DNA of 64,000 bases from Hymenobacter aerilatus (GCF_022921095.1 NZ_CP095053.1:3328501-3392500), one strand, 5' to 3'; positions 1,121 through 5,110 are shown, counted from the stretch's first letter. Numbers and translations: made by a program. Notes: a model not told the origin generated them from the letters alone.

Positions 1121-2485
1121 ATGGCTGCTTTACCCGATCCATCCGCTATCCAGCCGCTGCTAGAGGCGCTTACTTTCTCGCCCGATAATTTACCGCTTCG
1201 TAAGCACGTGGCCGGCCTGCTCGTGCAAGCTCAGCGCCTACCCGAAGCCGAAGAGTTGTACCGCACCGGCCTGCGCCAAGCCCCCACCGACACAGACTTG
1301 CAGTTGGGTCTGGCCGAAGTGTACACGGGGTTGCACAAGACCTCGGCGGCGTTTGTAGTGGTAGAGGAACTGCTAGCTGGCGCCCCCGAACACGCCCGCG
1401 CCCACTTGCTGCACGCGCGCTTGCTGGCCCAAACCGGCCAGCTAGAACCCGCCCGCGAGGCCTACGCAACCGCTCTGCACCACAACCCTACCCTGGAAGA
1501 TGCTGCTCTCGCGGCTCAGCTGCGCGAGTCGGCTACGCCCGTGCCGGCACAAGGCCCACGCCCCACCGACACCACGCCGGTGGTAGACGAGCAGGCGCTG
1601 TTTGCAGGCCTCGAAAAGCCAAAAATTAACTTTGCCGATGTGGGCGGTATGGAAGCGGTGAAAGAGGAAATCCGTCTCAAGATCATTCACCCGCTGCAAT
1701 TCCCGGACCTCTACAAAGCCTATGGCAAAGCCACTGGCGGCGGCCTGCTGCTGTACGGCCCACCCGGCTGCGGCAAAACCCACTTGGCCCGCGCCACGGC
1801 CGGCGAGGTGCAGGCGTCGTTTATCAACGTCGGCATCAATGATATTCTGGATATGTGGCTGGGCAACAGCGAAAAAAACTTGCACCAGCTATTCCAGATG
1901 GCCCGGTTGCAGGCGCCCTGCGTGTTATTTTTTGACGAGGTAGACGCCCTGGCCGCCAACCGCCACGATCTACGCCAGAGTGCGGGCCGCACCGTTATCA
2001 ACCAGTTTTTGGCTGAGTTGGATGGGGCCGTCAGTGCCAACGACGGCGTGCTCATCATGGCTGCTACCAATGCGCCCTGGCACTTGGATGCTGCATTCCG
2101 TCGCCCTGGCCGCTTTGACCGCATTGTGCTGGTGACGCCTCCCGATGAGGCTGCTCGCCAAGCGGTGCTGGAGGTGATGCTGCGCGATAAGCCGCTGGCG
2201 GCCAATGTGCAGATGGCCACCCTAGCCGCCAAAACCGCTGGCTTCTCCGGCGCCGATTTGAAGGCGCTGGTCGATGTGGCTATTGAAACCCGGCTGCGCG
2301 AATCGATGAAGCAGGGTCGCCCCCTACCCCTGGAGCAGGCCGATTTCCTTCAGGCTGTTGGGCAGGTGCGCCCCAGCACCAAGGAGTGGTTTGCCACAGC
2401 CAAAAACTACGCGCTCTACTCCAACGAAGGCGGCGTGTACGATGATATCCTGACGTATCTGGGCATCAAGAAACCGCGCGACTAG
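1121..2485 (+). CDS. AAA+ ATPase with N-terminal TPR repeats
   Basis: A 454-residue protein. Residues about 12-140 form tetratricopeptide-type helices (repeated A-x-x-L-Y-x-x-A-L patterns). Residues about 165-400 are one AAA module of the p97/spastin/FtsH class: Walker A GPPGCGKT at 213-220, Walker B VLFFDEVDAL at about 268-277 with the catalytic Glu, and a second region of homology with FRRPGRFDR near 326 supplying arginine fingers. A C-terminal helical lid follows. There is no membrane segment and no protease domain. It begins a tight operon: the next gene starts 13 bases after its stop, and both following genes encode TPR membrane proteins. It probably remodels client proteins brought by its TPR partners, but no substrate can be named. 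Confidence 0.85.
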   Translation: MAALPDPSAIQPLLEALTFSPDNLPLRKHVAGLLVQAQRLPEAEELYRTGLRQAPTDTDLQLGLAEVYTGLHKTSAAFVVVEELLAGAPEHARAHLLHARLLAQTGQLEPAREAYATALHHNPTLEDAALAAQLRESATPVPAQGPRPTDTTPVVDEQALFAGLEKPKINFADVGGMEAVKEEIRLKIIHPLQFPDLYKAYGKATGGGLLLYGPPGCGKTHLARATAGEVQASFINVGINDILDMWLGNSEKNLHQLFQMARLQAPCVLFFDEVDALAANRHDLRQSAGRTVINQFLAELDGAVSANDGVLIMAATNAPWHLDAAFRRPGRFDRIVLVTPPDEAARQAVLEVMLRDKPLAANVQMATLAAKTAGFSGADLKALVDVAIETRLRESMKQGRPLPLEQADFLQAVGQVRPSTKEWFATAKNYALYSNEGGVYDDILTYLGIKKPRD

Positions 2486-2498
2486 GCAAACGGCTTGT

Positions 2499-3719
2499 GT
2501 GATGAGGCAGGAAGAAGAATGGTTTGCCCGGGCAGCGCTCCTGCTTCAACACCACCGCCCCGCCGATGCGGCACAACTCGCCATGCACCGGCTCCGGCAA
2601 GAGCCGTATGATGTGCAGGCTCATCTTACCCTCACGGAGGCCCTGCTACGGCAACGTCGACTGGCTGAAGCGTTGGAGATGAGCCGCACCACCATTGCGC
2701 TAGCCCCCGAGGAGCCCAGCGCGTTCTTCCTCCTGGCCCAGGTGCAACACTTGCTCAGCCGCTACCTGGCCGCCGACGAAGCCATCATTCAGGCCCTGCG
2801 CCTGCGGCCCGATATGGTGCGCTACTATGCGTTGCGAAGTCAGATTTTGTGGTTTGCGGGCTTGTATGCTGCGGCTATTGAGACGGCCTACGCAGGGCTG
2901 AACTTGGAGCCCCAGCACGCGGGCAACCTGCTGTGGCTGGGCATGGGCCTCAACAAGCTACACGACTATACCACCGCCGACGCCGTGTTTACGCAACTGC
3001 TGGTGCTGGCGCCCAGCACGGCCATTGTGCGGCTCAACGTGGGCTCAGCGCTTCTGGAACGGCAGCAGGCAGCCGCGGCCCTACCCCACCTGCGCGAAGC
3101 CCTGCGCCTCGACCCTACCCTGCAAGTGGCGCACCGCCTGTTGCAGCGTGCTACCCGCGATACGCGCTGGTGGCGGCGGCCCGTGGTGTGGGCTACCGCG
3201 CAAAAACAAGAGATTCAACATCACTGGCGAGCACCGCAATTGCGGAGCAAGCTGTGGGCCGTTTGCCTGGTGCTGTGTGGCCTCGTGCTGCTCCTACCGT
3301 TGGCCGGCGCGTGGCTGCTGAGCGCCGTGCTGGAATGGCGGCACCAGCAGCAGGAGCGTGCCCCTACCCCCACCGACGCTTGGTTTTATGGTGGGCTGCT
3401 GTGGGGAGCCGTTACCATTGCCAGCGCCGCCTTGTTGCCATCCTCTCTACCCCTTACCTGGGCGCTGGTAGGAGGCGGGCTGATTTTCCCGTTGCGCAAT
3501 GCGTGGCGGCGCTTCCGCGAGGGCGACAAGCGCCTACCCTTAGGCTTTATGCTGTTGCTCTCGCCGGGCAGTTGTGCCTTGTACTTACTGTATGGTCTGT
3601 TGCTGAATCCTGACCCTGCGACCGAAAGCCGGCGTTTCTTGGCTATTTTTGGCCTTTTCCTGCTGATCTACCAAGTATTTCGGCCCGCTAAGCCATACCA
3701 GCAGCCAGAACAGGCTTAA
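2499..3719 (+). CDS. TPR-repeat membrane protein, first paralogue
   Basis: A 406-residue protein. The first about 220 residues are tetratricopeptide repeats (for example LTEALLRQRRLAEALEMSRT and similar units), predicted cytosolic. The C-terminal part has about five hydrophobic segments near residues 249-271, 294-314, 318-332, 347-368 and 378-392. No catalytic residues are visible. It follows the AAA+ ATPase by 13 bases and precedes a second protein of the same layout by 24 bases. The arrangement suggests a membrane-anchored adaptor or scaffold for the ATPase; this is inference. Confidence 0.8.
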   Translation: MMRQEEEWFARAALLLQHHRPADAAQLAMHRLRQEPYDVQAHLTLTEALLRQRRLAEALEMSRTTIALAPEEPSAFFLLAQVQHLLSRYLAADEAIIQALRLRPDMVRYYALRSQILWFAGLYAAAIETAYAGLNLEPQHAGNLLWLGMGLNKLHDYTTADAVFTQLLVLAPSTAIVRLNVGSALLERQQAAAALPHLREALRLDPTLQVAHRLLQRATRDTRWWRRPVVWATAQKQEIQHHWRAPQLRSKLWAVCLVLCGLVLLLPLAGAWLLSAVLEWRHQQQERAPTPTDAWFYGGLLWGAVTIASAALLPSSLPLTWALVGGGLIFPLRNAWRRFREGDKRLPLGFMLLLSPGSCALYLLYGLLLNPDPATESRRFLAIFGLFLLIYQVFRPAKPYQQPEQA

Positions 3720-3743
3720 CGGTACTCAGCCATTTTCTACGCC

Positions 3744-4949
3744 ATGCCCGTCACCCACTGGACCGAACGCATCTTGTTGCTGCTACGTCAGGAGCGCGCC
3801 CCACAGGCCGAGCAGGAGTTGCGCCAGATGCTGCACCACGACCCCAACGACGCGCTGGCCCACGGTTGGCTGGGCATGGCCTTGCTGGAGCAGAACAAGC
3901 TGGAGGAGGGTCAGCAGGAAGCAGAGCTGGCCGTTCATCTGGCGCCGGAATACGATTTTGCGTATTACTTGCTCAGCCTGGCCCATCTGCGTCAGCACCG
4001 CCCACAGGAAGCGCAGCAGGCCATTGAACAAGCTCTGGCCTTGGATCCCGCTGACCCCAACTACCACCACACGCTGGGCATCATCCGGTTTCGGCGGGGA
4101 CAGTGGGAGGCAGCCCTACGCGCCGCCGAAACTGGCTTGCGCTTCGACCCTACCCACATCGACTGCCTGGGGCTGCGCGGCCGAGCACTAGCCCGCCTGG
4201 GCCGCCGCTCCGACGCCGCCGACACCCTCCAGGAAGCTCTACGCCACGACCCCGACGCGGCCGGCACCCACGCCGATGCCGGCTGGGTGGCCTTGGAAGC
4301 CGGCCGGCCGAAACAGGCACTGGGGTATTTCCGCGAAGCCCTGCGCCTGCACCCTACCTCCGACTACGCCCGCGAAGGGCTGGTAGAAGCCCTAAAATCT
4401 CGCTACTGGTTGTACCGCGGCTTCCTCAAGTTTGCCTATTGGTCTACCACGCTGGGCGACGGCGCCCGTCGGGTGCTGTTTATCGGGCTGTGGGTGCTGG
4501 CGCGGTTCGTGCCGCTGCTGCTGCCCCTGTATTTGTTGCTGGTGTTCATGAGCTGGTTTGCCGATCCGCTGTTCAACTCTCTGCTGCGTCTCAATAGCTA
4601 CGGCCGCCACGCCCTTAGCCCCGACCAAATACGCCTATCGAATCAGTTTTTGGTGCTGTTGCTGGGCGGAACGGCGGCCGTGGTGGGCGGCTTGCTAGGG
4701 CAGTTGCCAGCCGTAGAACTCCTGGGCATTGTCACGCTGGGGCTGCTGTTTCCGGTGGTAGGCGCGTGGCGTCTGCTATTGCCCAAGCGTCAGCGTCAGT
4801 CGATGTGGTTTGCAGGTGGCCTGGCGGTGGTAGGACTTATAGCCGTTGGGCTCGTGGCCCTCGGCCTACCCCAAACCTACGTTACCCCTGCGCTGGCCTT
4901 ATATTTCGGCGGCTTGGTGGTGTACGTGTGGACGTATGCGTTACGGTAG
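3744..4949 (+). CDS. TPR-repeat membrane protein, second paralogue
   Basis: A 401-residue protein with the same architecture as the preceding gene: about six TPR units in residues 1-220, then hydrophobic segments near 244-272, 299-340 (two), 352-375 and 380-400. The pair probably arose by tandem duplication, though identity between them is low by eye. The TPR part is more regular here, with classic A-x-G-L-R-x-x-P-x spacing. The operon ends in a long inverted repeat and a hairpin terminator just downstream. No enzymatic function can be assigned. Confidence 0.8.
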   Translation: MPVTHWTERILLLLRQERAPQAEQELRQMLHHDPNDALAHGWLGMALLEQNKLEEGQQEAELAVHLAPEYDFAYYLLSLAHLRQHRPQEAQQAIEQALALDPADPNYHHTLGIIRFRRGQWEAALRAAETGLRFDPTHIDCLGLRGRALARLGRRSDAADTLQEALRHDPDAAGTHADAGWVALEAGRPKQALGYFREALRLHPTSDYAREGLVEALKSRYWLYRGFLKFAYWSTTLGDGARRVLFIGLWVLARFVPLLLPLYLLLVFMSWFADPLFNSLLRLNSYGRHALSPDQIRLSNQFLVLLLGGTAAVVGGLLGQLPAVELLGIVTLGLLFPVVGAWRLLLPKRQRQSMWFAGGLAVVGLIAVGLVALGLPQTYVTPALALYFGGLVVYVWTYALR

Positions 4950-4964: not shown

Positions 4965-5046
4965 CGGTGTAGAGACGCATACTTGCGTCTCGCCGTGACA
5001 CCGGATTTTGTTTAACGGCGAGACGCAAGAATGTGTCTCTACACCG
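4965..5046. repeat. Palindromic intergenic repeat, type III
   Basis: Two 31-base arms (4965-4995 and 5016-5046) are complementary at 29 of 31 positions, separated by 20 bases. The arms contain GTAGAGACGCA and TTGCGTCTC. It begins 16 bases after the stop of the TPR gene, the same placement as the other palindromic repeats in this window. Confidence 0.85.
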
Positions 5047-5070: not shown

Positions 5071-5110
5071 AACACAAACGGCCCGCCTTTGAAGGCGGGC
5101 CGTTTGTGTT
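5071..5110. terminator. Bidirectional hairpin terminator
   Basis: A perfect 18-base-pair stem (5071-5088 with 5093-5110) and a four-base loop. The stem has a GC core and AT-rich ends (AACACAAA and TTTGTGTT), so it works as an intrinsic terminator in both directions. It sits between the TPR operon (+) and the convergent ammonium transporter (-). Confidence 0.85.

Follow-up and report, generated by a model that had tools for sequence, protein, structure and literature searches.

FtsH is the best-known AAA motor at bacterial membranes, and Msp1/ATAD1 carries its own membrane anchor. In the peroxisomal system, the AAA ring Pex1/Pex6 is recruited by Pex15, a tail-anchored and poorly conserved protein whose core is alpha-helical (PMC9265785). 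Two aromatic residues occupy pore loop 1 in both Msp1/ATAD1 and Cdc48 (PMC9273213), and in the bacterial SpoVK/CbbX/EccA clade, marked by a GY signature in sensor-1, EccA has N-terminal tetratricopeptide repeats (TPRs) (PMC10659427). Here we analyse a three-gene locus of Hymenobacter aerilatus, contained in a stretch of 64,000 nucleotides (GCF_022921095.1, NZ_CP095053.1:3328501-3392500; hereafter the window), which encodes a TPR-AAA ATPase and two TPR membrane proteins. Judged from its sequence and distribution, the ATPase is one half of an obligate or nearly obligate pair, a two-gene conserved unit, with the product of the third gene, here called B. The reading we favour, and consider reasonably probable, is that of a two-component, membrane-docked protein-remodelling machine in which B docks a threading unfoldase.

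All three genes lie on the plus strand. The first (window 1121..2485) encodes the ATPase of 454 amino acids, with Pfam matches to AAA (1.5e-38), AAA_lid_3 and TPR; its nearest relatives among solved structures (PDB) are Cdc48/p97, the D2 module outscoring D1 (about 38-41% identity in fold matches). A gap of 13 nucleotides (nt) separates it from gene 2 (2499..3719), which codes for a variable second TPR membrane protein of 406 residues and starts at a GTG or at the next ATG (2502 possible). Gene 3 (3744..4949) follows after 24 nt and encodes B, the conserved TPR membrane partner of 401 residues, supported by its orthologues and an AlphaFold2 (AF2) model. TPRs are recognised by Pfam in the proteins of genes 2 and 3, and hydropathy places transmembrane (TM) segments in the C-terminal half of these two products only, the ATPase having none. 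Open reading frames, Pfam and hydropathy thereby confirm the initial annotation, which had described a soluble TPR-AAA ATPase and two TPR membrane proteins with exactly these coordinates and gaps. The host genome of 5.28 Mb holds a single full-length ATPase and a single B. Because the layout is conserved across phyla, it is not a product of chance.

The pairing of the ATPase with B is visible in gene order. Within the host genus the ATPase was found in 9 of 36 other genomes, and in 3 of 22 genomes from the rest of the order. Of the 20 Bacteroidota loci examined, 19 have a B-type gene downstream of it, and in most host-genus loci one or two gene-2-type genes stand between ATPase and B. A scan of the whole collection returned ATPase relatives in Planctomycetota, Cyanobacteria, Verrucomicrobiota, Fibrobacterota, Chloroflexota, Actinomycetota, Bacillota and Pseudomonadota. 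Across the informative loci, that is, those with an ATPase of at least 370 bits and enough downstream sequence (L074, L076 and L077 end too soon), B follows the ATPase directly or after a gene-2-type gene in 39 of 42, the exceptions being L054, L069 and L137. The B orthologues adjoin the ATPase in several phyla, with scores of about 249-605 bits. Stop and start codons overlap by 4 nt at many loci (L049, L055, L058, L059, L065, L067 and L072) and also in Actinomycetota, a recurrence that suggests translational coupling.

Co-occurrence was assessed with a profile of the B membrane domain only (A3), which excludes TPR noise. The ATPase and B each occur in 8 of 395 Bacteroidota genomes, and the two sets of 8 are identical (hypergeometric p about 7e-17, or 3e-11 when counted by genus; these values and the one that follows take no account of shared ancestry and exaggerate the evidence). 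The profile includes rows from some of the counted genomes, while G121, G345 and G287 lie outside it. In G287 the pair is unlinked, with the ATPase at 3.47 Mb and B at 0.306 Mb of the same 3.95 Mb contig (C1), and B reads there as a complete TPR-TM protein. The 199 Planctomycetota genomes include 29 with a full-length ATPase, 28 with B and 27 with both (p about 7e-30), at a cut-off for full-length ATPases (E <= 1e-115) that was chosen after the scores were known; at 1e-55 the ATPase count is 56 genomes, the extras being lower-scoring AAA relatives (about 190-330 bits). In 22 of the 27 the membrane domain of B starts 588-788 nt past the ATPase match, making B the next gene, and in the remaining pairs it lies about 1.9 kb downstream (two), upstream (two) or on another contig (one). 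Long open frames in Planctomycetota were considered as natural ATPase-B fusions and rejected, as they run in another frame than the ATPase (offset 2 mod 3, in six worked by hand).

Given the unlinked G287 case and the patchy pattern, simple linkage is an insufficient explanation of these results. No third conserved partner was found among the neighbours of the pair, and no linked peptidase or protease among its conserved neighbours. The idea that all three genes would co-occur stands for ATPase and gene 3 and falls for gene 2, which is diverged and optional. The opposite outcome raised by the initial annotation, an ATPase mostly alone or beside unrelated genes in its relatives, does not describe the data (B is present with 8/8 Bacteroidota ATPases, 27/29 Planctomycetota ATPases and at 39/42 loci).

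Judged from its residues, the ATPase should be catalytically competent. Its AF2 model (pLDDT 87.3, pTM 0.61) presents a TPR N-domain, also matched by Pfam (residues 7-136, 1139..1528), a disordered linker (140-158), the AAA module with its lid (164-416, 1610..2368) and a helical C-terminal tail (417-451, 2369..2473), all encoded on the plus strand. The motifs comprise Walker A GPPGCGKT, pore loop DMWLG, Walker B FFDEVD, sensor-1 ATN and the arginines R327, R328 and R331. The catalytic positions are invariant or nearly so among 36 relatives: the K/T of Walker A, the D/E of Walker B, N317, R328 and R331 are kept in all 36 and R327 in 33, and position X1 of pore loop 1 is aromatic in every one. 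Walker A and B, the sensor-1 asparagine, the arginine fingers and the aromatic pore loop 1 of a classical AAA unfoldase are thus all found, and the pore loop follows the usual pattern of AAA proteins that thread their substrates. In the C-terminal tail (consensus KPSTxEWFxTAKNYALYANxGGLYDDILxYLKIKK) conservation equals that of the AAA core (3.31 vs 3.23 bits per column), and at the level of sequence the tail marks the ATPase family. An HbYX motif is not present at the ATPase C-termini (..YLKIKK, ..KKPRD and similar).

These features bear on membrane protein quality control, the function tentatively suggested by the initial annotation and taken here as the extraction of membrane proteins by a bacterial system akin to Msp1 or to endoplasmic-reticulum-associated degradation (ERAD). 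A p97-D2-like motor with a membrane receptor would suit such a task. However, pore loop 1 has one aromatic residue against two in Msp1/ATAD1 and Cdc48 (PMC9273213), which is a mild objection; the patchy occurrence in 8 of 395 Bacteroidota genomes is unlike that of general housekeeping, and a linked protease is missing. Membrane-protein quality control is a possible role without specific support, and we rate this explanation of the locus as improbable.

The partner B combines a TPR arm with a membrane domain. Its AF2 model, built with 32 aligned relatives (mean pLDDT 94.2, pTM 0.86), shows six TPRs (residues 3-202, 3750..4349, plus strand), also supported by Pfam and fold searches, followed by a cap, a juxtamembrane helix and a helical membrane domain of 5-6 helices (residues 239-400, 4458..4943, plus strand), which hydropathy and profile A3 also delimit. 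Fold searches return TPR superhelices; the arm fills the list and the membrane domain is barely sampled. Segments rich in lysine and arginine lie before TM1 and in the TM2/3 and TM4/5 loops, whereas the TM3/4 and TM5/6 loops are neutral or acidic, and by the positive-inside rule the TPR arm is therefore predicted to be on the cytosolic side. Conservation peaks in the last TPR, the cap helix and the juxtamembrane helix (residues 173-236, 4260..4451, plus strand), with 2.51-2.65 bits per column vs 1.75-2.02 for TPR1-5. TM1, TM2 and the TM2/3 loop are likewise better conserved than the outer TPRs. Beyond AAA and TPR, neither the ATPase nor B receives a name from Pfam, NCBIfam or PADLOC models.

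Taken together, the machine we propose would work as follows. The ATPase would assemble into a hexameric threading ring, which B would dock on the cytosolic face of the cytoplasmic membrane. On the side of B, the dock would be formed by the last TPR, cap and juxtamembrane region, a placement chosen because conservation peaks there; on the side of the ATPase, by its N-terminal TPRs or the conserved C-terminal tail. A client, which would be a membrane-associated protein or complex, would be selected by the distal TPRs of B and, in the host genus, by the fast-evolving gene 2, and the ring would pull it using ATP. The client would be released remodelled rather than degraded, as there is no linked peptidase and the C-terminus is not HbYX. 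We infer the docking, the clients and the function of this machine. Several findings weigh against it. ATPases without a recognisable B exist (L069 and its metagenome-assembled genome, G466 and G619), position X2 of the pore loop is aliphatic in 35 of 36 relatives and threonine in one, so that pulling of transmembrane segments is not favoured, and the adjacency of ATPase and B fits B as the sole client of the ATPase equally well.

That last possibility is the main rival to docking. Here B would be acted upon, the ATPase serving as a dedicated chaperone for the assembly, disassembly or resetting of B oligomers, much as CbbX acts on Rubisco, and the membrane domain of B would carry the function. 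The narrow one-to-one pairing with no other conserved neighbour would suit such a chaperone, TM1, TM2 and the TM2/3 loop of B are conserved beyond the need of a mere anchor, and dedicated AAA chaperones exist in SpoVK, CbbX and EccA (PMC10659427). Yet in several lineages a single ATPase is accompanied by two TPR membrane proteins that differ from each other, and in sister clades the TPR arm is retained with another membrane part; an adaptor would explain this better than a sole client would. On balance we find B as client unlikely, though it is the alternative to which we give most weight.

Gene 2 provides a closer view of the variable side of the system. Its product aligns with that of gene 3 over 240 columns, covering the arm and the juxtamembrane region (E 2.7e-52), with the membrane half diverged and unaligned. 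Over nine host-genus loci, the ATPases are on average 74% identical, the gene 3 products 58% and the gene 2 products 33%. By sequence comparison gene 2 is thus a fast-evolving, optional paralogue of B: it is absent in L043, and L049 has two such genes. Second TPR-TM genes are also found in L071, L081, L093 and L118, and the Planctomycetota search gave second B-profile matches in G542, G544, G555, G585 and G586. The membrane half of gene 2 alone matched nothing beyond its own genome and was rejected as a marker because it evolves too fast. Within the proposed docked machine, a variable arm that may be present or absent beside a conserved core would suggest client choice.

To place the ATPase among its relatives, we examined a tree of 104 AAA domains, in which the family (47 rows, support 99/96) falls inside a broader clade that is separate from p97 and FtsH (100/98); the deep branch order is unsure, as long branches meet there. 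The host-genus ATPases (that of the window and L041-L049) group with Verrucomicrobiota and not with other Bacteroidota (93/81), and one row from Fibrobacter (L073) is nested within Bacteroidota. Both placements hint at horizontal transfer of the pair. Most of the more distant relatives in Actinomycetota, Bacillota and Pseudomonadota adjoin a TPR protein with at least one TM segment, and profile A3 misses these sister-clade partners, or finds them marginally, in the genomes tested. The layout is thus wider than the B family, the membrane parts of the sisters being matched by layout, which does not imply homology. In Paenibacillus (L114) the ATPase is without the N-terminal TPR domain and its partner consists of TPRs and one TM. 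This minimal form in Bacillota (L114:6902-8744 and L115:2256-4085) has an ATPase of 315-321 amino acids lacking the TPR domain and a partner with a single C-terminal TM, and should lend itself to biochemistry. Beside three archaeal ATPase relatives (L126, L135 and L136) a TPR-TM partner was not found, and they are possibly a partner-free branch. Public annotation of related pairs is generic ("ATP-binding protein" or "AAA family ATPase" with "tetratricopeptide repeat protein" or "hypothetical protein").

Related pairs also occur on some Streptomyces and Actinomyces plasmid records. This location, the patchy distribution and the fast evolution of gene 2 would be in line with a conflict system, anti-phage or otherwise, whose sensor or effector is a TPR membrane protein. 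Against this, the PADLOC similarities to IetA (125 bits, AAA region only) and TRIP13 are generic to AAA proteins, and IetS is not among the conserved neighbours (no separate IetS search was made). There is no effector domain, no match among 50,697 phage records, and no defence gene is conserved around the pair. We therefore regard a conflict system as very improbable. Beyond the docked remodelling machine, a broader and more tentative proposal, which we hold as somewhat less than evenly probable, is that bacteria of many phyla have a broad class, not described so far, of AAA machines recruited to the membrane, each built from a TPR membrane receptor and a p97-D2-like unfoldase, with interchangeable receptor arms choosing clients. 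If true, this class would be a bacterial counterpart of the organelle-surface AAA systems.

Downstream of gene 3, before a convergent transporter gene, lies a palindromic repeat, GTAGAGACGCATACTTGCGTCTC, whose inverted partner is imperfect (window 4969-5046). Its motif gives 13 strand hits in the genome vs 0 for the reversed control, and it is probably a dispersed element resembling repetitive extragenic palindromes (REP) or miniature inverted-repeat transposable elements (MITE). A G+C-rich hairpin also stands between the convergent genes (window 5080-5110), with GGCCCGCCTTTGAAGGCGGGCC inside a longer palindrome; judged by eye, it is likely a bidirectional terminator.

The ATPase can be compared with described AAA systems. 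Its AAA module is closest to the D2 of p97, in line with the initial annotation, which called it p97-type, and it belongs to a clade of its own with a single module. Cdc48/p97 and the actinobacterial Cdc48-like Cpa combine an N-domain with a pair of AAA modules (PMC6017811), whereas here TPRs precede one, and the score of 224.5 bits lies below the CDC48 family cut-off of 802.65. With the SpoVK/CbbX/EccA clade it shares the status of a bacterial AAA protein likened to chaperones, and with EccA of type VII secretion the N-terminal TPRs, but its sensor-1 reads ATN in 36/36 relatives and the EccA model gives 33.5 bits against a cut-off of 466.65. Msp1/ATAD1 is a single-ring AAA protein at a membrane, as the ATPase would be; here X2 is aliphatic, the ATPase has no TM, and the anchor is a separate protein. 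FtsH, a classical AAA protein tied to the membrane as the ATPase is proposed to be, is present in the same genomes, but the ATPase has neither a C-terminal zinc protease domain nor a TM, ends in a 35-residue tail, scores 211.7 bits against a cut-off of 600, and falls in another clade of the AAA tree. The proteasome-activating ATPases PAN and ARC/Mpa differ in the C-terminal HbYX motif, which the ATPase does not have. In line with the initial annotation, no named system with this layout was found: Pfam, NCBIfam and PADLOC yield AAA and TPR only, and we found no description of the ATPase-B system in the open-access literature (subscription papers lay outside the search).

By analogy, Pex15/PEX26 with Pex1/Pex6 would be the nearest mechanistic precedent: in both cases a soluble AAA threading motor would be recruited by a membrane-anchored helical partner (PMC9265785). 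The two differ in that Pex1/Pex6 is a double-ring heterohexamer and Pex15 has one TM, while here a single AAA module follows a TPR N-domain and the partner is multi-pass with canonical TPRs; the Pex15 system is also eukaryotic and peroxisomal, and the present one bacterial. A second bacterial membrane motor whose anchor, and perhaps client choice, is supplied by a partner would extend the receptor-plus-AAA principle to a new use in bacteria. The pair spans Bacteroidota, Planctomycetota, Verrucomicrobiota, Cyanobacteria and Fibrobacterota, with a related form in Actinomycetota and Bacillota, and its compactness makes the function directly testable. The principle of an AAA ring with a membrane adaptor is already known from eukaryotes.

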